The notes under the pieces: generated by a model
What the model saw: the letters and a program-made list of their open reading frames with translations, nothing else
What the model was told of the DNA's origin: nothing
Database searches by the model: none
NCBI GenBank assembly: GCA_009664345.1
Contig: CP043547.1
Coordinates: forward strand, 5,236,709 to 5,300,708
From: Planctomycetales bacterium 10988
Lineage (GTDB): Bacteria > Planctomycetota > Planctomycetia > Pirellulales > Pb10988
Length of the DNA: 64,000 nt
Direction of reading: 5' to 3'
Translations under genes and position numbers: made by a program
In this document: piece by piece, positions 2,087-19,098 of the stretch
Layout: each line of letters starts with the position of its first letter
Position numbering within the stretch: the stretch's first letter is position 1

Positions 2087-2629
2087 ATGTCCGAAAAACC
2101 ACTCTCCGGTCAGCGGATTTTGATGTTCGTCGGCGATATCTATGAAGATTTGGAACTTTGGTATCCCAAGCTGCGGTTGCAAGAAGCCGGGGCCGAAGTT
2201 GTTGTCGCTGGGCCTAAAGCCGGAGAAAAATACGCTGGCAAGCATGGCTACCCCTGCGTTTCCGATGCCGCTCTCGATGACATGCAGGCGAGCGATTTCG
2301 ATGGCCTGGTCGTTCCCGGAGGATTCATGCCGGATAAACTTCGCCGTGATGAACACGTCAAACAATTGGTCCGGGATTTCGATGCTGCCGGAAAATTAGT
2401 AGCGGCGGTTTGTCATGGAGGTTGGATTCCAATCTCCGCCGGAGTCTATCAAGGAGTCAAAGTCACCGGGTCGCCGGGGATCAAAGATGACTTGGTGAAC
2501 GCCGGGGCGATTTGGGAAGACGCTCCGCTGGTGGTCGATCGCCACTTTGTTTGCAGTCGCCGCCCGGATGATTTGCCGGATTTCTGCGAAGGAATCATTG
2601 AAGTCCTCACCGCGAAAGTACCTAGCTAG
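2087..2629 (+). CDS. DJ-1/PfpI family protein (type 1 glutamine amidotransferase-like)
   Basis: 180 residues from ATG 2087, which has AAGGA six bases upstream; a TTG at 2081 is possible but less likely. The nucleophile elbow AVCHGGW places Cys109 next to His110, and Glu20 in the DIYEDLELWYP segment is the usual third catalytic residue. The length matches PfpI/YhbO proteins, which have been described as peptidases, glyoxalases or deglycases. It is probably cytosolic. It follows the MoxR-DUF58 pair by 126 bp and is closed by a strong terminator at 2684. The substrate cannot be inferred. Confidence 0.9.
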   Translation: MSEKPLSGQRILMFVGDIYEDLELWYPKLRLQEAGAEVVVAGPKAGEKYAGKHGYPCVSDAALDDMQASDFDGLVVPGGFMPDKLRRDEHVKQLVRDFDAAGKLVAAVCHGGWIPISAGVYQGVKVTGSPGIKDDLVNAGAIWEDAPLVVDRHFVCSRRPDDLPDFCEGIIEVLTAKVPS

Positions 2630-2683
2630 CATCAAAGACATCCCAGGAACTCCCTTTTCTCCCTTGATATGGTGAGGAAAGCA

Positions 2684-2726
2684 AACAGCGAGGGGCCATC
2701 AGGCGGTCCTCTCGCTGTTATTTTTT
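2684..2726 (+). terminator. Rho-independent terminator after the PfpI-like gene
   Basis: Stem AACAGCGAG/CTCGCTGTT extended by G-rich pairs around an apical loop, followed by a run of six T. It separates the MoxR-DUF58-PfpI group from the TIR-FGE cassette, so the cassette probably has its own promoter in 2730-3041. No convincing -35/-10 pair was picked out there. Confidence 0.85.
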
Positions 2727-3041
2727 GCCATCTTGAGACCGAAGCCAAGCCATTTCACCGAAAACCCAACCTTTCAACTACCGACAAGCGGGGCAAACTT
2801 CTCTAGGTAGATTGAAAAAATCTTGGTATTCTACGGGCTCTCCGTTATATTGAAGACGCATTAGGTAGGTGATTACAAGTTCTACGCCTTCGACTTGCGT
2901 GCCAGCCAACGAGGTCTTCTTTGGGCGGAGTCTTTTGAAGGATTTGCGAAGTAGGACGCCTTGCCAAAGCGTTTTCTTTTGAAGCAATCGGAAGAAGACG
3001 TTCTTTTGAAAGGATCAAGGAACGCCACGAAGGGGAGAAGC
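2727..3041. other. Non-coding region upstream of the TIR-FGE gene
   Basis: 315 bases without a supportable gene. The TIR-FGE frame is open back to 2961, but the upstream residues look unlike protein and the ribosome binding site lies directly before 3042. A promoter for the cassette is expected here but could not be defined by eye. Confidence 0.5.
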
Positions 3042-4421
3042 ATGTCGGTCGTTTCTACGAAGTCGCACGCGGATGTCTTTATCAGCTATGCGGTGAAGGA
3101 CCGAGATCCTGTCATCGCACTGGCTCAGGGTCTGAAAAAAGCTGGCTTCTCCGTGTGGCGAGATGGGGATCAACTCCTCTGCGGAGATTACTACGGCGAA
3201 CAAATTGCCCAAGCGATCCATCATTCTAAAGTCGTCGTCTTGATGCTTTCTCCCAACTCGCTGGCTTCCGACAATGTCATGCAGGAAGTTCGCCTCGTTT
3301 GGGACTTCGGGCATCGCAAGATTCTCCCGATCTGGCTAACCGAGCCGGGGCCCATGCCGGAGCGATTCCGTTTTTGCTTGGCAGGCACACAATATCTTTC
3401 CCTCTTCAATAATACGGTCGAGTCAATCCTCAAGCAGCTTGTTGACTCGATGCGAAATCTCGAAGTCAAACCTCGCATCCAAGCAGGATCAAGCTATCGC
3501 CTTGAAGTCTCCGAACCAGCGATCAGCCCGAAGCCGGTGACGGCCTATGCTTCCTTCTCTTTTCAAGAGGCAAGTACCCAAGACTGGGAATCAGACCTCG
3601 ACGAGATCGATTCGCCTGCGTTTGCTCAAAAAATACAGAAAAAGTTTGCTCAGAAATCGCGGCTGCCGCTCTCTTGGCAAAATGCCTGGGGGATGGAGTT
3701 TCGGTTGATTCCGCCGGGGATCGGGAAGCTTGGAACATCTCCCGAAGATACAGACGCCGCGAAGTCCGAATTCCCCGAACAACTCGTTCCGATCACGACC
3801 GGATTTTGGATGGGGACGTTTCCCATCACCGGAGAAGTCGTCCAGCAATTTCTTCAATCAAACCATCGAGAACGCCGCTTCGAACGACTACGAGGAGATC
3901 GGACCTTCGCTCGAACATTGCGAAGTCAACCTCAAGCGAGAGAACTTCCTGTCACGGAAATCAACGCGGAAGATGCCGCGATTCTTTGCCAATGGCTGTG
4001 CGAGAAGGATAACAAACGCTACCGCATTCCGACCGAAGCCGAGTGGGAATATGCCGCCCGGGCCGGGGCAAGCGGGGCTTTCTGGTGGGAAAGTAGCAGC
4101 GAACGGCCGCCGGCTGCCTTTGCGGCCAAGTCGCCTGCCCCGCCCGATCCCACGCGATCGAACGCCTGGGGCCTGATGGATATGTCCGGCAATGTAGAAG
4201 AGTGGACGTGCAGCCCCTTCGAAAAAAACACCATCTTAGACAAGGTGGAAGAGATCGAACGGGCCGTGGTCGCTCCTTCTAAAATTCGTACGAGAGTCGT
4301 TCGCGGAGGGAGCTGGCAATCGAGTCAACTTTCGCATTTACGGTTGCCGCGGCGACGAAGCATGTTTTGGCAGAAGCGAGCCCCGGACCTGGGCATCCGA
4401 CTTGTTTGCATGTTGGATTAA
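3042..4421 (+). CDS. TIR domain-FGE/sulfatase-modifying-factor fold fusion protein
   Basis: 459 residues. ATG 3042 is chosen because AGGGGAG lies just upstream and the TIR domain begins right after it; the frame is open to 2961. Residues 10-100 are a TIR domain (HADVFISYAVKDRDP, then LSPNSLASDNVMQEV). Glu82 of MQEV is at the position of the catalytic Glu in NAD-cleaving TIRs. A linker of about 110 residues leads to an FGE/SUMF1 fold at about 215-457, with RIPTEAEWEYAARAG, GLMDMSGNVEEW, VVRGGSWQ and a C-terminal GIRLV. The cysteines used by true formylglycine-generating enzymes after RGGSW are missing (here QSSQLSHLRLPRRRS), so this half is more likely a binding or scaffold domain. The pattern resembles effector-plus-sensor proteins. 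First gene of the signalling cassette. Confidence 0.9.
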   Translation: MSVVSTKSHADVFISYAVKDRDPVIALAQGLKKAGFSVWRDGDQLLCGDYYGEQIAQAIHHSKVVVLMLSPNSLASDNVMQEVRLVWDFGHRKILPIWLTEPGPMPERFRFCLAGTQYLSLFNNTVESILKQLVDSMRNLEVKPRIQAGSSYRLEVSEPAISPKPVTAYASFSFQEASTQDWESDLDEIDSPAFAQKIQKKFAQKSRLPLSWQNAWGMEFRLIPPGIGKLGTSPEDTDAAKSEFPEQLVPITTGFWMGTFPITGEVVQQFLQSNHRERRFERLRGDRTFARTLRSQPQARELPVTEINAEDAAILCQWLCEKDNKRYRIPTEAEWEYAARAGASGAFWWESSSERPPAAFAAKSPAPPDPTRSNAWGLMDMSGNVEEWTCSPFEKNTILDKVEEIERAVVAPSKIRTRVVRGGSWQSSQLSHLRLPRRRSMFWQKRAPDLGIRLVCMLD

Positions 4422-4450
4422 CTCGAAACCAATAGAAACCGAGGAACGTC

Positions 4451-6250
4451 GTGTCCGGTGAGAACCCTGAATGTTTACTTTGTGATGCGAAGCTGCAGCT
4501 CCCTTCATTGCATTGCTCGACGTGTGATACTCCGCACACTCGTTGCAATGACTGCGAGGCGGTTTTCCCGGCGAAAGATGCGTTCTGTCCCTTTTGTGGA
4601 GCCCCGAGCTTCGCCTCGGCGTCGGAGATTGATCCTTCGCTCTCTCCGCTTCCGGCATCTCCAAGCATCGAGCCGCAGCCACAACCGAAACTTCCTAATC
4701 CTCAAGACAAGCTGGATCAGTTAGCGGGGCTCTTTCAACAAACGAGCCAACCCGACCCCGCTCCGAATCTTCAACCGCCGACGACTTCGCAACCGTCGGG
4801 GGCCCTCCAGCCCTTGGCTCCAAGTACCCCGCCGAGTGCGGAGGCGAGTTCTCCCGAAGACGCGAATATGCAGGCCCTCTTGGCAGGATTTGGACTCTCG
4901 GGCGATGCCCCTCCGCAAGACTTGGCGAGTCCTGTCTCTCCACAGACTCCGCAGGCAATGCGACCTTCTAGAGAAGAACTCCCCGACTGGCGAACAGCGG
5001 GAGGGCCGCTCGTCGGAGGTTTCGGGAGCGACATCAGCTTCAATCATTCCGACGATCCAATCCTCATCGAGATCGATGGTTCCGAAGAATATCGTGCCGG
5101 CGAACAAGGGGTCTTACGACTAAGACTGCTTGCTCAAAACGTAGAAGAAGACGCGATTGTCCGCCTGAAGATTGAATCGAAGCTGTTAGCGAAACCGGTT
5201 CCATTGGAAGCAGAAGTTCAGCCCGGTCAGGCGTATCATTTCCCAGCCATGGCTTTTGTACCGCAAATCGCCGGACGCCACCCTTTGCAATTCACGGTCG
5301 CTTTGGAAACAATCTCCAAAGTACCGCTCGGGAAGTGGTCTTCCAGTCATGTTGTCAAAGTCGAAGAGGCCCCGCAACAGGAAAACCAAGCCATCAGTGC
5401 CGGCGGAGATGTCATCATCATGGGAGGTGGCAATCGGGGGCAAGCCGCGGAGGACTACAGTTTTGGAGAGAAAAAAGGTTGGGTCGCTCTACCTTTGCAA
5501 CCGGATCGAGCCTTCAACCGACGGGTTAAAGCCCTGAAACCCCCGACGATCCACGGGATGCCCGAACTGCCCAGTGATTGGTATTGGCCGGTTGGAACGC
5601 AACTGCTAGCTTCGCTGTTCGTCGCAGATCATCATACGGGCCGCTCACAAGTTATCGCCTTTGTCTGTGGAACGACCGCTTCCATGGGCCGAGGGGGCGA
5701 CCCTTCGATCGCATGGTGGTTGCGTCCGCATCCGCATGATCCGCATCAGTTCGGCAGGCTCTCCCGTCGGCATACCGTGCTGACGTTGCATGAAGGACGG
5801 GCCTGGATTGAAGATGTCAGCACCAACGGAACCTGGCTTGAAGATCAGCGTCTTGAGAAACGAGACCCCCAACTCTTGGCGGAGGAAGATCATTTTGCTC
5901 CAGCAGACGTGGTCCGGTTCGTTCCAACATTGGTGACTTATGAAGACGCGGTCGAAGCTATTTTTCTGCAACGCGAAGACGGCTTGATGGGACGCTTGAG
6001 TTACTGTCTTGCGTCCGGAAAATGCCCGCTCCCCCTCAAATTCAGCGGTTCACCGGAGATCGCCTGTTGGCTGCTTTGGCAAAAACAACCGCAAATGGGT
6101 CCGCAACTTTTAATCAAGACAGATGAAACCGATTGGCAACCGCTAGGTCCGCACGCCGCCCAGGTGTTAAATCAACGTTATCGAATTCAATGGCAACTGT
6201 TATCCTCTCCAATCGAACAACAAGCCTATTTAGGGCAATTGGCATTTTAA
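4451..6250 (+). CDS. Zinc-ribbon and FHA domain protein
   Basis: 599 residues from GTG 4451, with GAGGA five bases upstream, 29 bp after the TIR-FGE stop. The N-terminus holds paired CxxC zinc ribbons (CLLC, HCSTC, CNDC, CPFC; residues 8-57). A long Pro/Ser/Gln-rich disordered linker follows to about residue 175. A beta-rich segment (about 195-310) may be an Ig- or arrestin-like sandwich. The FHA domain has MGRG (Arg414), SRRH (438-441) and STNGT (Asn459), the residues that bind phosphothreonine. After the FHA core there are roughly 110 unassigned residues. It probably reads phosphorylation by the kinase encoded at 8265 in the same cassette. FHA and ribbon calls are firm; the sandwich is a guess. 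Confidence 0.9.
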   Translation: MSGENPECLLCDAKLQLPSLHCSTCDTPHTRCNDCEAVFPAKDAFCPFCGAPSFASASEIDPSLSPLPASPSIEPQPQPKLPNPQDKLDQLAGLFQQTSQPDPAPNLQPPTTSQPSGALQPLAPSTPPSAEASSPEDANMQALLAGFGLSGDAPPQDLASPVSPQTPQAMRPSREELPDWRTAGGPLVGGFGSDISFNHSDDPILIEIDGSEEYRAGEQGVLRLRLLAQNVEEDAIVRLKIESKLLAKPVPLEAEVQPGQAYHFPAMAFVPQIAGRHPLQFTVALETISKVPLGKWSSSHVVKVEEAPQQENQAISAGGDVIIMGGGNRGQAAEDYSFGEKKGWVALPLQPDRAFNRRVKALKPPTIHGMPELPSDWYWPVGTQLLASLFVADHHTGRSQVIAFVCGTTASMGRGGDPSIAWWLRPHPHDPHQFGRLSRRHTVLTLHEGRAWIEDVSTNGTWLEDQRLEKRDPQLLAEEDHFAPADVVRFVPTLVTYEDAVEAIFLQREDGLMGRLSYCLASGKCPLPLKFSGSPEIACWLLWQKQPQMGPQLLIKTDETDWQPLGPHAAQVLNQRYRIQWQLLSSPIEQQAYLGQLAF

Positions 6251-6265
6251 CCAGGGAGTTATCGC

Positions 6266-8131
6266 ATGGCAGCGAAATCATGCCCGCATTGCGGGGAAAA
6301 GGTCTATGCCGGAGTTAAGTTTTGTGCGAACTGCGGGATCGAGGTCAATCCCATCAAGGAGACGGAAGACCGCGTAGGCAAGGCTGCCTACTATGTCCTC
6401 TCCCAACGTGCAGGGCGAAATCAGCAAAAACTCCAGCAGCAAACCATCGCGCACGTCATGGTCACCGATCAGCTTGCTGATGGTTCCTTGCCGAATATCA
6501 AACGCCTCGAAGTTCGCGAGGGGACGTTCACGGTCCTCTATTCACCCTTTCATGGTCCCTTGATGTTGGAACCGGGAGAGCATGAAATCTCCGACCTCGG
6601 TGTTGGTGCGGAAAAATCATTCGAAGCCGGGAAGACCACACAACGCGCTTATATATGCACCGTGGCCCGAAATCCCTTGGTCACCGAGTTCGTTCTACCG
6701 GATGCCATCAGCGCTCGCGAAGCCAGCGATGCGAGAGACCTCGCGGCCCACACCGATCTGACCCAACGCGATCAGCAGATCACCATCGCCCAGCATACGC
6801 TCACCTCTTTAAGTATGCGAACGGCCGATGATATTCTCGGTGGGGCGACCATGCAACTGGTCCTTCGCTGTACGAATCCAGCCCCGATGATTTCGATGCT
6901 CTTTTCCTCGCGGTTTGATAATCTCTCTCCGCAAGAAAAACAAATCTTTAGCTCACAGCGACAAAACCCCAAATATAAAGGGAGTATCGGGGCACTCTTT
7001 TCGTATAGCTACGATTTTGTCAAGCACGCCTTCGGCATGAGTTCTGGCCCGAAAATTCCCAATACGATCGCCTTCTCCATCTCGATGTGGGACCTATGGA
7101 CGCAATTCCGCATGGAGTTCGCTGGGGCGATTATTCAATCAATCCGCAACGAAACGGCCCAATCGCTGTATGATACCGTCGAAGTTCGGGACCGGGTCGC
7201 GGAAGATATTTCCAAGATCATGACCGATTCGATTCGCCTCTTTGGCATGAAAGTCGATCGTGTCTCCTCCTTCCGCTTTATCTCGCCGCAGTATGAAAAA
7301 ATGCTCGAAGGCCGGATGAAAAACGCCTTGGATCGGGCGGAACTTTCGGACCTGGAAGAAGCGGAGGATATCCAAACCGAACGTGACGAGATTGCCAAGA
7401 AAAGTGGGGCCCGGCAAGCAGACAATGCAAAGTTCAACAAAACGCTTGAGGCCGAGAAAGAGCGGCATGGAATCGGCCAAGACCGTGAGACACAACGGTT
7501 GAAAAACGAAGTCCACATCGAGCAGGTCGATCACAAGCACCTCGTCGATGCCAAAGAGTTCAATCACGAACAAAGTAAACTCGAAGCGGCCGAGCGAACT
7601 CGGATGCAGCTCGAATTTGAAAAAGGGGAGATGCAACATCGCCTGACTTCGCAAAAAGATGATCTTCAGTTCCAAAAGCTCGAACGAATGATGGAACTGC
7701 AAGCCAAGCAATACGAACTGGAAGACCAACGTTCGGACCGCCAGCTTGACCGGAAGCTTCGTCACGAGGATGCCGAGTTTCAACGCCGTGTTACCTTACT
7801 CAAAGAGTATGCCGGTCTGCCGGAAGATTCAATTCTCACCATCGCCGTGGCGGAAAATCCTAAGCTCGTCCAAGCCTATACCGCAACGATGAAGGCGAAA
7901 GGCCAAGACGAGCAGCTCACGATGCAGAAACAATTTCGCAAGGATATCGAGAGTATCTACGGCGTAAACACCAAACAAACGCACGAACTTCTCATCGAGG
8001 CCGCTCGACAATTAGGATCGGTTTACACCGCTCAAGCCGCCGGGAAGCATCAAGCCAGCCAAGCTGAAGCGGCGATTACGCAACAGCCGAGGGAGTTGCC
8101 GACTTCGCCTGCGAATGAGAAAGAAACGTAA
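6266..8131 (+). CDS. Zinc-ribbon, SPFH/band-7-like protein with long coiled coil
   Basis: 621 residues, starting 15 bp after the FHA gene with CAGGGAG upstream. The first 24 residues form a zinc ribbon (CPHC at 6-9, CANC at 20-23). Residues about 50-340 are beta-rich, with features seen in SPFH/band-7 and virion-core-like proteins. Residues about 345-510 are a highly charged coiled coil (RAELSDLEEAEDIQTERDE and onward), the usual oligomerisation stalk of SPFH proteins. No transmembrane helix is seen. SPFH proteins form ring or cage scaffolds on membranes, so this may be the assembly platform for the kinase, FHA and TIR proteins. The SPFH call rests on overall architecture and is moderate; the zinc ribbon and coiled coil are plain. 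Confidence 0.8.
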   Translation: MAAKSCPHCGEKVYAGVKFCANCGIEVNPIKETEDRVGKAAYYVLSQRAGRNQQKLQQQTIAHVMVTDQLADGSLPNIKRLEVREGTFTVLYSPFHGPLMLEPGEHEISDLGVGAEKSFEAGKTTQRAYICTVARNPLVTEFVLPDAISAREASDARDLAAHTDLTQRDQQITIAQHTLTSLSMRTADDILGGATMQLVLRCTNPAPMISMLFSSRFDNLSPQEKQIFSSQRQNPKYKGSIGALFSYSYDFVKHAFGMSSGPKIPNTIAFSISMWDLWTQFRMEFAGAIIQSIRNETAQSLYDTVEVRDRVAEDISKIMTDSIRLFGMKVDRVSSFRFISPQYEKMLEGRMKNALDRAELSDLEEAEDIQTERDEIAKKSGARQADNAKFNKTLEAEKERHGIGQDRETQRLKNEVHIEQVDHKHLVDAKEFNHEQSKLEAAERTRMQLEFEKGEMQHRLTSQKDDLQFQKLERMMELQAKQYELEDQRSDRQLDRKLRHEDAEFQRRVTLLKEYAGLPEDSILTIAVAENPKLVQAYTATMKAKGQDEQLTMQKQFRKDIESIYGVNTKQTHELLIEAARQLGSVYTAQAAGKHQASQAEAAITQQPRELPTSPANEKET

Positions 8132-8165
8132 GCAGGAGGTCGTCTCGATCTCCCATCTCAATCCA

Positions 8166-8177
8166 AAAAGTACTTTT
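8166..8177. repeat. Perfect 12-bp palindrome upstream of the kinase gene
   Basis: AAAAGTACTTTT, in the gap between the SPFH-like gene and the kinase. It resembles the 1026-1039 element upstream of DUF58. The role is unknown. Confidence 0.25.
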
Positions 8178-8264
8178 GACTAGAATCCAGAAGTAAGCCC
8201 ATCTGTCAAGAAGATGGTAGCTTTCAAAATACGGTGTTTCCCCGTCCATGAATGGGTAGCTCTG

Positions 8265-11200
8265 ATGAATGACGAGACGTTTTCCGATGCTGGAAAGATG
8301 CCGCCAAAAAGTTCGAGGCCTTCCACGCCTGGGCCAAGTTCCACGCCACCCTTTTCCTCGCAGGATGACTACGGGGCAACCTTCGCCGATGGCGGCCCGA
8401 TGTCTGCGCCTGGATCGATGCCGAGTCGAAGTCCAGCAGGAAGCTTTGGTCAACCAGCACCTTCCAGCGGAATGGGAGGGGGAGCCGAAGACGAGTATGG
8501 GGCGACCTTCGCGGACGGATCCGCCGCCGAGTCGGGCGGAAGTAGCGGTTTTCTGAGTCCTGGAACCGGGCAGAACGTTCAGCCCTATCAAGTCGTTCAC
8601 CTCATCGGCCGAGGAGGAATGGGGCTCGTCCAACTTGCCCAAGATACCCGACTTGGCCGCTACGTCGCATTGAAAAGACTTTCGCCGGAGTTCGCCTCCA
8701 ATCAACGTTTGCTGAGCCGTTTCGATATCGAAGCCAAGGCCGTCAGCAAACTTTCGCACTATCATATCGTCCAAGTCTATGCGATGGACTACGACCAGGA
8801 AGGTCCATATATCGCGATGGAATACGTGGCGGGGCCGCGGGGTTTTTCACGACCGGACTGGCCCAGCCAATTGCCCGCGCCTCCGGTAGACCTCGATGAT
8901 TGGGTCAAACACCAAGGCCCTTTCTCGGTTCAAAAAGCCCTGGAGCTAGGAAAGAAAATTTGTCGAGCGGTCGGCTTTGCCCATCGGCAGGGGATCATTC
9001 ACCGCGACATCAAACCGGCGAATATTCTTTTGACCGAAGACGCGGAACCGAAGCTTGCGGACTTTGGCCTCGCCCGAGAAGTGTCCGATCAACAAGATGG
9101 GCATACGCTGGCCGGTGCCCAAATGCTGACTCTCGGCTACGGGGCTCCTGAGCAAGAGATCGATGCTTCCAAGGTTGACGAGCGGGCCGATATTTACGCC
9201 ATCGGGGCAACGCTTTGGTTTGTGCTGACGGGGCAAAATCCTCGTTACTTCCGGGAAAACGAGGTCGACCCCCAGATTCGCCCTGTCATCGTGAAGGCCT
9301 TGGAAAAAGATCGAGAACAGCGATACGCCACGGCTGGGGAAATGGAAGAGGCCTTGCAAGCCTTGGAAGTTGCCTCCGCTGGTGTCTTGCAAGGAGGGAT
9401 GCCGATTCTGCCTGGCCAGCAAATGGTTTCCGGGAAATGTCGATCGTGTGGGCACCAGCATGTCTTGAATGCGGACGGGACGCTCAATCGAAATTTCTGC
9501 GATGGCTGTGGTGAGAACCTTCGTGTCGATTGTTTGAGCTGTGGCCAGCCGGAGTGGACTTGGTCGAAGTTCTGTGGCTCTTGCGGTTGTGAATTGGCTA
9601 AGACCGAAGAGCAGATGGCCAACCAAATGAAGGAAGTTCTCGACCAAGCCAATCAACTTGCCGACGACGGCCGCTGGAAAGATGCCTACAACGCGGTCGA
9701 AAAAGTCGCGACGGCTTCGTACCCTGGTTGGCCGGCGCTCGAAGCCCGCGTCAAGGAATGCACCGAACTTCGCACTCAGTGGCAACAGCAAGCAAAGGCC
9801 GCCCAGGAACAACGAGAGAAAGCGACAGCCGCCGCGAAAGAGGCTTTTCACGAAAAGCGCTTTTCGGAAGTTGTTCAACTCTTGGAAGAAATTCCTCTCG
9901 GCTTACGGGATGAGGCGATCACCCAGCAACTCACCGAGGCGACAAAAATACGCGACCAGCTACAAGACCTGAATCAACAGATCGAGCAGAAGCTCCAACA
10001 AAAAGCGTATGACGGAATGCTCGGACTCATTGATCGTATCCTCGCGATTCAACCAGAAAACGAACATGCCAAGAAACTTCATTTTCAGTTTGAACGGTTG
10101 GAAGCTCGTTCGCTCTCCCAAGAAATCCAAGAACGTTTTGCCCAGCATCAATACTCGGGACTGAAGGCGAAAGTTCAAGAGTTGCTCAAGCTCACCCCGA
10201 AAGACCCTCAAGCGAAGAAGATGCTCGAACAGCTCTCTCGCTGGGAGCTACAACATGAAGAGCCGCGACTCTGGCAAGAACTAACGCAAAAACCGGTTTT
10301 TGAAGGTTTTCGCAATTACTTGGAACGATTCCCAACCGGACCTCATCGGGAGGAAGCCCAACAGCAGGTCGTCTATGAACTTCGGAATCAACTCTTATCC
10401 GATCCGCAGGGCAAGGAAAAGCGGCTGGAATATCTCAAGTACCGCACGCCGGAACTGCTTGAAAAAGACGAAGACCTCGTTCGGAATCATCTCGCTAAGC
10501 AAGGGGCTTTCTGGGGAGGGCTGATCGGATTGATTGGCTGTGTCATTGGTTCCATCCCCGGAGCGATCTTTGGATATATCTATGGAAAGAACAATCTACT
10601 GACCCCGAAAGATTATCGTTGGCAAGCGTTCCTCGGCCCGGTGCCGATGCGATTGGCCGCGTCTAATCCGACTTCGATTGCCAGATTGCAACAACGCCTC
10701 CTTGGTGATACCCCTTTGGGTCAAGTGATTCCCGAGGAGATGCAAACCTTTCCCGAGAAGAAACCGACAGGTTCCACGTTGCCTTGGGTTGCCTTTGGGG
10801 CAGCCGCCGTGGTGATTCCTTTGATCTTGGGGGGCTTGGTCCTGTTTAGTGGGGAACTCGTGATCCCCGAGGCTCCGGTGCCGACGGCTTGGGATGCTTA
10901 CCAAGAATGTGATTACGAAGAGGCCCTCGTCCGTGCGGACCTTGCGATCGAACTGGGAGAACCCGCGGCGGAAGAATACAGCGATCGAGCCTATCTCAAG
11001 CTGGTCTCGGCACTCTCGCAATACGCGACCGGAGAGCTTGGCTCGGTGCAACCGGGCTCTGCAAGCTTGGCGAAGGCACGTGAGAAAGTCGCCTCGTCGA
11101 TTGTCGAAGATGCAAAAGCCGCTTTGAAATTGAATCCCGACGACTCCGTCGCGAGGGTCTTGCAGTACACTGCCACGGATGGAGAGTCGCCGCTCGGTTA

Positions 11201-11756
11201 TGGATTTCTCTTCTACAAAAAAAGTCCCAAGGAGATGGAGCAGCAGTTCGTGGATGCCGGGACTTGGGAACAGGACCGGGCCGCCTATCACGTACTCTAT
11301 ACCTTGTGGCTCTTGGAAACCAAAATCGAATCGAATCAGACCTTCCCCGGCATGGGCACAATGAATGCGCCGAGTGCAAAGCAAATACTACTTTTTACGA
11401 ATCAGCTCGATCTGGCCGAGGCTCTCTCTTGGGATGATCCGCATGTCACCTTGATGAAGGCCCGCATGCAATCGTATCGAAACCTCGCGGAGATGGAGGA
11501 GGCTTTCTCGGAATCGATTCGGCTGGCCCCGGAATCGAATGTCCTGGGTTATCTGCTTCGAGCGGCCCATGGGACCGATCCGTTTCTGGCGGCCGATGAT
11601 CTCAGCCGCGCAATTGACATTCGCCCGGAAGGCTACTTCCTCTATCAATTGCGGGCCGGTGCCTATCAACAACTCGGCATGTTTATGGAAGCCCGTGCGG
11701 ATGCCCAAGTCGCCCAAGAGTTTCAGCAGGTTGCCGGCGAAAAGCAACTTCGCTAG
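8265..11756 (+). CDS. Membrane-anchored serine/threonine protein kinase with zinc ribbons
   Basis: 1163 residues from ATG 8265 (GGGTAG five bases upstream); an in-frame ATG at 8214 would add 17 residues. Residues 1-100 are disordered and hold three related motifs: ETFSD (T5), YGATFADG (T39) and YGATFADG (T81). The kinase domain (about 105-375) has GRGGMG, VALK, HRDIKPANIL, DFGLAR and YGAPEQ, so it looks active. Zinc ribbons with CRSC, CDGC, CLSC and CGSC span about 391-446. Alpha-helical, charged repeats (about 450-740) precede a glycine-rich hydrophobic segment (about 751-775) and a transmembrane helix (about 839-864). The C-terminal 300 residues are TPR-like. It ends the cassette and converges on the YdeP gene, 8 bp between stops. 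The catalytic part is probably cytosolic and the TPR-like part on the other side of a membrane, or both ends cytosolic if the glycine-rich segment also crosses. Confidence 0.93.
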   Translation: MNDETFSDAGKMPPKSSRPSTPGPSSTPPFSSQDDYGATFADGGPMSAPGSMPSRSPAGSFGQPAPSSGMGGGAEDEYGATFADGSAAESGGSSGFLSPGTGQNVQPYQVVHLIGRGGMGLVQLAQDTRLGRYVALKRLSPEFASNQRLLSRFDIEAKAVSKLSHYHIVQVYAMDYDQEGPYIAMEYVAGPRGFSRPDWPSQLPAPPVDLDDWVKHQGPFSVQKALELGKKICRAVGFAHRQGIIHRDIKPANILLTEDAEPKLADFGLAREVSDQQDGHTLAGAQMLTLGYGAPEQEIDASKVDERADIYAIGATLWFVLTGQNPRYFRENEVDPQIRPVIVKALEKDREQRYATAGEMEEALQALEVASAGVLQGGMPILPGQQMVSGKCRSCGHQHVLNADGTLNRNFCDGCGENLRVDCLSCGQPEWTWSKFCGSCGCELAKTEEQMANQMKEVLDQANQLADDGRWKDAYNAVEKVATASYPGWPALEARVKECTELRTQWQQQAKAAQEQREKATAAAKEAFHEKRFSEVVQLLEEIPLGLRDEAITQQLTEATKIRDQLQDLNQQIEQKLQQKAYDGMLGLIDRILAIQPENEHAKKLHFQFERLEARSLSQEIQERFAQHQYSGLKAKVQELLKLTPKDPQAKKMLEQLSRWELQHEEPRLWQELTQKPVFEGFRNYLERFPTGPHREEAQQQVVYELRNQLLSDPQGKEKRLEYLKYRTPELLEKDEDLVRNHLAKQGAFWGGLIGLIGCVIGSIPGAIFGYIYGKNNLLTPKDYRWQAFLGPVPMRLAASNPTSIARLQQRLLGDTPLGQVIPEEMQTFPEKKPTGSTLPWVAFGAAAVVIPLILGGLVLFSGELVIPEAPVPTAWDAYQECDYEEALVRADLAIELGEPAAEEYSDRAYLKLVSALSQYATGELGSVQPGSASLAKAREKVASSIVEDAKAALKLNPDDSVARVLQYTATDGESPLGYGFLFYKKSPKEMEQQFVDAGTWEQDRAAYHVLYTLWLLETKIESNQTFPGMGTMNAPSAKQILLFTNQLDLAEALSWDDPHVTLMKARMQSYRNLAEMEEAFSESIRLAPESNVLGYLLRAAHGTDPFLAADDLSRAIDIRPEGYFLYQLRAGAYQQLGMFMEARADAQVAQEFQQVAGEKQLR

Positions 11757-18058: not shown

Positions 18059-18702
18059 GCACCTCGGTGGTTGAGTAACGTTTCAAAGGAGGTGGCTCCC
18101 GTCCACTCGGAAACCCCAAAGAGAAGACTTCCCTTTGAAACCAAAATATCGAAAAACTTTCTAAATTCCCGCGGCAAATTTCTGTCATTCCTCCATTGAA
18201 CGACAGCGAACTTGCTCGCGAAACTGGACACACCAAGCGGAGTCTCCCAAAGTTTCTTCTACTGAAAGAGGGCGTAGATTACCGAGACTTGCCGATTTGA
18301 TCAACAGAATTATTTTCATATTTCTGCTCGAAGTGCTTTCCCTGCCGTATTCTCCGCTTCTTTCGTCACTCTTTTTCACACATTTCCCTTCTTGCCCAGC
18401 AAGAAAAATCGAAACCTTCCTCGACGGTCAAAAAGTTGCAATTACAATAAGAATAGGACTTTGGGAAAAGATTCCCTTGAGGTACAGAATCGATTGCACG
18501 GATTTCATGCAATATTTGGAATGGAATTTGGCAACTCTTTCCCAAGAATTCCTTCTCACGTCTAGGGAATGCTCATTCCTAGGATAGAATTGAAGAAGTC
18601 CGGGAATAAATGGAGGCTCTCATTCGTTTATCTTATAGAGCGATATTTGATTCCTTATGTTAGCTCGATCACCGAATGGTTACCAATCGAAGGAGAACAA
18701 GA
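18059..18702. other. 644-bp divergent intergenic region
   Basis: Lies between the divergent haem-protein and MPNMT-lipoprotein genes. Small open frames here have no credible ribosome binding site or protein-like composition. Promoters for both neighbours are expected but none was defined. Confidence 0.5.
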
Positions 18703-19098
18703 ATGCGATTGTATGGTTTGCCCGCCTTATTGGGTGTCTGTGGTTTGATTTTTTCCACCGGATGTGCTCCGGCTCCTCCGAAACCCGTCGTTGTGGTGGA
18801 AGAGGAAGAAATCCTCTTGGTTGAAGAACCTCCAATGGAAGATGAAGTCGCCATTGAAGAACCGCTTCCTGAAAGCAAGGACGATTCGCCCATCGACGAC
18901 CTTCCCGTAGTTACTGAAACCAATCCGGTCATGCCGAATATGACCGCCATGCCGAATATGACCGGAATCACCATGCCCAATATGACCGGGATGCCGAACA
19001 TGACGGGCATGCCGAACATGACCGGGATTCCAATGCCCAATATGACCACGATTGAAGAAACGATCGATTCCGTCTTGCCTAACACGACCGCTGAATAG
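18703..19098 (+). CDS. Small lipoprotein with six MPNMT repeats
   Basis: 131 residues from ATG 18703, preceded by AAGGAG eight bases upstream. A signal peptide (MRLYGLPALLGVCGLIF) ends in STGC, giving Cys21 as the likely lipidated residue. Next come a proline segment and an acidic stretch (VVVVEEEEILLVEEPP). Residues about 77-115 hold six copies of MPNMT separated by G, A, GIT or GIP. The M-x-x-M spacing recalls methionine-rich copper-binding motifs, but no other metal gene is near, so this is only an idea. The mature chain is otherwise low complexity with no fold recognised. It stands alone, well separated from the ABC importer downstream. Confidence 0.85.
   Translation: MRLYGLPALLGVCGLIFSTGCAPAPPKPVVVVEEEEILLVEEPPMEDEVAIEEPLPESKDDSPIDDLPVVTETNPVMPNMTAMPNMTGITMPNMTGMPNMTGMPNMTGIPMPNMTTIEETIDSVLPNTTAE
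18931..19047 (+). repeat. Tandem MPNMT-coding repeats
   Basis: Six copies of a 15-base unit encoding MPNMT (ATGCCGAATATGACC and close variants), separated by 3-9 bases. The copies differ mostly at third positions, which suggests an older repeat kept by selection on the peptide. Confidence 0.9.

Follow-up and report, generated by a model that had tools for sequence, protein, structure and literature searches.

N-terminal threonine tags of a planctomycete Hanks kinase clade as candidate docking sites for an FHA protein of the same gene cluster

In Actinobacteria, the kinase PknG has a disordered N-terminal extension in which autophosphorylated threonines (Thr23, 32, 63 and 64) recruit GarA or OdhI through their FHA domain (PMC8546545). 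In Bdellovibrio, the FHA domain of DgcB recognises a phosphorylated threonine within a flexible tail at the N-terminus (PMC6733907). FHA reading of a phosphorylated kinase tail is a known mode. The window analysed here, a stretch of 64,000 nucleotides from Planctomycetales bacterium 10988, encodes a kinase and an FHA protein in one cluster of same-strand genes, whose features are as follows:

2961–4421, plus strand: TIR and FGE-sulfatase protein (TIR_2 5.6e-22, FGE-sulfatase 3.3e-37), directly upstream of the FHA gene
4451–6250, plus strand: FHA protein, 599 aa (PF00498 2.8e-08), with an N-terminal zinc ribbon, a beta-rich middle and the FHA domain
5660–5893, plus strand: FHA core, aa 404–481, with Arg414 (5690–5692), Ser438 (5762–5764), His441 and Asn459 (5825–5827)
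6266–8131, plus strand: zinc-ribbon protein of 621 aa, predicted to form a long helix or coiled coil; zinc ribbon the only Pfam match
8265–11756, plus strand: Ser/Thr (Hanks) kinase, 1163 aa counted from the ATG at 8265
8277–8288, plus strand: tag 1, TFSD within NDETFSDAG, with T5; resembles the first tags GETFGDDA and GETLDGG of G456 kinases
8370–8393, plus strand: tag 2, YGATFADG, with TFAD at 8379–8390 and the T39 codon at 8379–8381
8496–8519, plus strand: tag 3, YGATFADG, with TFAD at 8505–8516 and the T81 codon at 8505–8507
8586–9284, plus strand: Pkinase domain of the kinase, aa 108–340 (Pfam PF00069 3e-38)
9438–9587, plus strand: double zinc ribbon (DZR) C-terminal to the Pkinase domain, aa 392–441 (3.1e-05, below the Pfam cut-off); common to tagged relatives

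Counted from 8265, the kinase tail reads MNDETFSDAGKMPPKSSRPSTPGPSSTPPFSSQDDYGATFADGGPMSAPGSMPSRSPAGSFGQPAPSSGMGGGAEDEYGATFADGSAAESGGSSGFLSPGTGQNVQ and then enters the Hanks kinase domain; the VALK, HRD and DFG motifs are all in the translation. The tail comprises 106 residues, of which 60% are Pro, Gly, Ser or Ala, a composition that suggests a flexible or disordered extension. The first-pass annotation had pointed to three TFxD motifs in this region, at T5, T39 and T81, and all three are there, each with Asp at +3. Composition-preserving shuffles of the 106 residues give an expectation of 0.022 TFxD motifs against the 3 observed, a number that did not arise in any of 20,000 shuffles. The two YGATFADG copies (tags 2 and 3) differ in five of eight codons, by one base each, and all five changes are synonymous, an outcome with a chance of ~0.001 on the assumption that one change in four is synonymous. 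The peptide therefore appears to have been kept by selection. Comparable tail repeats are absent from the 63 other kinase tails read from the same 6.65-Mb genome, where a looser motif gave just two isolated weak matches. Many of the paralogous kinases in this genome have a short N-terminal region before the kinase domain that ends like LTxWQxxxLLxGxxxGFFLG. A Gly/Ala/Asp-rich tail duplicated by low-complexity processes could in principle hold a functionless motif, as the 60% share of four small residues might suggest, but the shuffle test, the fact that the repeats differ by synonymous changes only, and the recurrence of the tags across the clade described below make this very improbable indeed.

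The repeats had also been taken as support for the start at 8265. Relatives' kinases likewise start a few residues ahead of their first tag, so this start is favoured; an in-frame ATG lies upstream at 8214, and the argument stops short of proof.

Using the kinase domain, the zinc ribbon and the following region as query, we searched 397 genomes of the order, and the top matches came from G215 (40% identity), G508, G127, G296, G300, G246 and G456 (genomes and loci are named by our own G and L handles). A tree of 107 rows places the window kinase together with all tagged kinases in a clade of 28 kinases with support of 100/97, and all 61 paralogues from the window's own genome (61/61) are excluded from it. 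The clade has a few further members, from G365, G477, G442 and G392, and tagged kinases are also present in class members beyond the order (G516, G582, G607 and G570). The C-termini of tagged kinases vary, with FGE in some, three FGE plus lectin-like domains in G516 and Sel1 in G215. One locus (L245, 2228–11353) encodes a 3041-aa tagged kinase with three FGE-sulfatase domains plus one laminin-G-like domain and NPCBM domains, and has an adjoining SPFH gene. Three kinases of the same clade, in L229 (3993–6191), L231 (4417–5106) and L154, have a PP[TS]D[RQ]GR stretch right before the kinase domain in place of SLGD tags. The same stretch occurs in a partial kinase next to an FHA gene at the start of L231, and it is perhaps another conserved site.

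Most other kinases of the clade bear one to three N-terminal tags of the form SLG[DE]xxT[FL]x[GD], and repeats in relatives' tails include SLGDQSTFGGG, SLGDEATFGGD, SLGDERTLGGG and SLGGETFGDD; the G215 kinase tail has a single degenerate copy, SLGDKATETRG. Counts over 43 tag sites, two of them from the window (window tag 1 left out), give the consensus S-L-G-D/E-x-x-T-F/L-x-G/D-G. Upstream of the threonine, Ser is found at -6 in 33 sites, Leu at -5 in 32, Gly at -4 in 31 and Asp or Glu at -3 in 33; downstream, 22 sites have Phe and 15 have Leu at +1, and 28 have Gly and 12 have Asp at +3. The conserved core consists of an acidic residue (Asp/Glu) ahead of the Thr, the Thr itself, Phe or Leu directly after it and Gly or Asp at +3. 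The tails of 21 relatives contain 33 copies of T[FL]x[GD] against 3.1 in shuffles, and among 283,855 residues of six-frame open reading frames from the fetched loci the tag is confined to clade kinases or their fragments, plus one chance-like match. A DNA-level pattern for SLGDxxTF, written with TCN serine codons only, returned ~100 matches in the 397 genomes and missed known tagged kinases; these matches look like noise.

The window tags have acidic residues upstream and the second half of the motif, ATFxDG, and they are repeated and placed as in the relatives, but the SLGD half is missing. Scored with a matrix of relatives' tags trained without the window, the best window site reaches p 0.19 and the third-best p 0.002; picked out one by one by such position-specific scores, the single window tags are unremarkable. 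Because SLGD is absent and only the repetition stands out in scoring, we consider it probable rather than certain that the window tags belong to the relatives' tag family. The proposal that the sites belong to the pT-x-x-D ligand class preferred by Rad53 FHA1 is not supported for the family: all three window sites have Asp at +3, but the family position is mostly Gly (28 of 43, with Asp in 12).

For the FHA side, a profile built from four FHA proteins that adjoin tagged kinases was run on the 397 genomes of the order. Strong matches to this FHA family (E<1e-90) were found in G127, G246, G508, G215, G296, G300 and G456, and exactly these 7 of the 397 genomes also hold clade kinases at E<1e-60. 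The profile seeds came from four of the seven; for the three non-seed genomes (G296, G300 and G456), the chance of three out of three is ~1e-7, a raw value uncorrected for shared ancestry and horizontal transfer. Weaker profile matches occur in G226, G392, G442 and G477, three of which have clade kinases, and the kinase gene directly adjoins the FHA gene in G226, G442 and G392. The clade kinase of G365 lacks SLGD tags, and this genome gives no match to the FHA family. In some genomes a single strong FHA-family match accompanies several tagged kinases (G127, with L065, L066, L067 and L214, and G456), and G508 has several tagged kinases with one strong FHA match and a fragment at a contig end. 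This imbalance suggests one FHA reader for several kinases.

The first-pass annotation had proposed checking whether the motif is kept only where the FHA gene is a neighbour. The co-occurrence of tag and FHA gene agrees with this. The contrary case that it named, a missing motif beside a retained FHA gene, is seen only remotely, in G442 and G392, where clade kinases without a clear tag adjoin a distantly related FHA gene. FHA linkage retained without tags would suit an arrangement in which the FHA domain binds the kinase mainly at activation-loop phosphothreonines, with the tail threonines being substrates in another role, and docking of an FHA protein on a kinase activation loop is known for mycobacterial PknB. 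We nevertheless consider this arrangement quite improbable, as it leaves the conservation of the tags, their repetition and their confinement to FHA-linked kinases unexplained.

The relatives' clusters commonly hold a further gene. SPFH/Band_7, FHA and kinase genes follow one another on one strand in G127 (L214), G582 (L246), G607 (L247), G570 (L248) and G226 (L230), and in G246 (L209) with a 267-aa gene in between. FHA precedes kinase in G508 (L205) and G456 (L228), and SPFH precedes FHA with a convergent kinase gene in G215 (L204) and G300 (L208). In L208 of G300 (3463–8349), the family FHA is fused to a trypsin-like protease and DUF2779 downstream of SPFH, and in L227 of G296 (2312–5062), SPFH is followed by an FHA–trypsin fusion. 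The surroundings of the tagged kinase of G296 (L207) include a recombinase as well as an AbiEi/AbiEii pair.

The tag co-occurs with the SPFH gene about as often as with the FHA gene, and several SPFH cluster proteins have a GYF_2 domain, a peptide-binding fold. These observations would fit another role for the tag, as a regulatory or targeting linear motif that FHA does not read: a pseudosubstrate or autoinhibitory tail, or a segment bound by the SPFH/GYF protein or a zinc-ribbon protein. We also know of no strong FHA preference for Gly at +3, the residue conserved in the tags. Against this, GYF ligands are proline-rich and the tags are not, the SPFH proteins of G215 and G226 have no GYF match, and the most constant element of the tag, Thr followed by Phe/Leu, fits the phosphothreonine specificity of FHA domains. 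On balance, a tag that serves some reader or function other than FHA seems unlikely, though not negligibly so.

Gene order in the window differs from that of the relatives, running TIR–FGE, FHA, 621-aa zinc-ribbon/coil protein and kinase, all on the plus strand. The 621-aa protein may correspond to the relatives' SPFH/Band_7 protein: blastp against SPFH relatives gives 0.002–0.005, but the HMM score is within the shuffled range, the profile of SPFH relatives aligns at the N-terminal end only, and Pfam finds no Band_7 match in it. The TIR–FGE protein is a possible effector or sensor of the same cluster, and an FGE domain is often carried by the relatives' tagged kinase itself. PADLOC and NCBIfam returned generic kinase or TIR/FGE matches, those from NCBIfam below cut-offs, and a search of the genome contigs found one kinase in an unrelated context. 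Scanning the fetched loci with a simple motif recognised no reverse transcriptase of a diversity-generating element, apart from one spurious-looking match. Elsewhere in the window, at 18676–19098, a small lipoprotein-like open reading frame has tandem PNMTGM/PNMTGI repeats.

The window FHA protein retains Arg414, Ser438 and Asn459, the phosphate-binding residues that had been read from its sequence. Across the family, this pocket is conserved in part: Gly413-Arg414 and Ser438-Arg439-x-His441 are invariant in the 14 aligned FHA proteins (14/14), and Asn459 is present in 4 of 14, with Thr, Ser, Lys or Leu in the others. The window protein matches the relatives' FHA profile over the FHA core only, its similarity to the L204 FHA protein is weak (22% over 274 aa, E 0.013), and its DZR match (0.0015) is below cut-off. 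At genome level the window FHA gene gives no match to the relatives' FHA family profile, and 149 genomes of the class hold no direct orthologues of it or of the 621-aa gene, bar weak FHA-only matches. AlphaFold predictions for the FHA protein and the 621-aa protein (mean pLDDT 34 and 42) are too poor for use. Both genes thus look too diverged from the relatives' genes for orthology to be proved.

Taken together, these data lead us to consider it reasonably likely, on sequence evidence, that the three sites serve as docking tags at the kinase N-terminus, recognised by the cluster's FHA protein. Context gives good support to a PknG–GarA-like docking of FHA on a phosphorylated tail of the kinase, namely the co-occurrence in 7 of 397 genomes, the usual adjacency of the genes and the invariant FHA Arg and Ser; the pT-x-x-D assignment lacks such support in the family. 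In such a mechanism, the kinase would phosphorylate the tag threonines in cis or in trans between copies, or a sister kinase would do so. The FHA protein of the same cluster would then bind the tag phosphothreonines through its Arg/Ser pocket, and this binding would hold the kinase in a complex, for which a membrane-associated SPFH (Band_7) protein would probably be the scaffold in the relatives. The diverged window genes would be expected to act like those of the relatives. An extension of this model, possible but doubtful, is an SPFH–FHA hub in which one membrane-bound reader of a shared phospho-tag serves several sensor kinases with differing C-termini (FGE, lectin-like, Sel1 or unassigned regions), and in which the FHA–trypsin proteins of some genomes and the window TIR–FGE protein could point to an output such as an immune-like or cell-death response.

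Only a minority of the many planctomycete Hanks kinases have known partners, and a tag limited to FHA-linked kinases makes it possible to test binding partners concretely and at low cost. Tagged kinases next to an FHA protein suggest a conserved tag-and-reader docking system, and the tag offers a sequence handle with which other components of the pathway could be sought. Neither the tag family nor the SPFH–FHA–kinase cluster turned up in the open-access literature searched, and the SPFH link, with trypsin, TIR and FGE in some loci, suggests a signalling platform absent from that literature.

The clusters share FGE/FGS, TIR, trypsin, kinase and Band_7 domains with the vWA-MoxR/VMAP and FGS conflict systems, and the excerpted account of those systems does not contain the FHA–SPFH–tagged-kinase core (PMC7159879). 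No vWA, VMAP or iSTAND component was recognised among the scanned cluster genes. DgcB differs in that its tail is part of the FHA protein, with Val at +3; here the kinase carries the tail. Compared with PknG, the tagged kinases have defined repeats, either SLG[DE]xxT[FL]x[GD] or ATFADG, and some relatives have several tagged kinases per genome. Unlike in the PknG–GarA pair, the gene for the FHA partner belongs to the kinase's own cluster, in most cases together with an SPFH gene, and GarA is much smaller than the cluster FHA protein. Both types of kinase have a metal-binding module, rubredoxin-like in PknG and a zinc ribbon in the window-type kinases. The likeness to PknG–GarA/OdhI is found in the combination of a threonine-containing N-terminal kinase extension, whose disorder is here suggested by composition, with an FHA partner.
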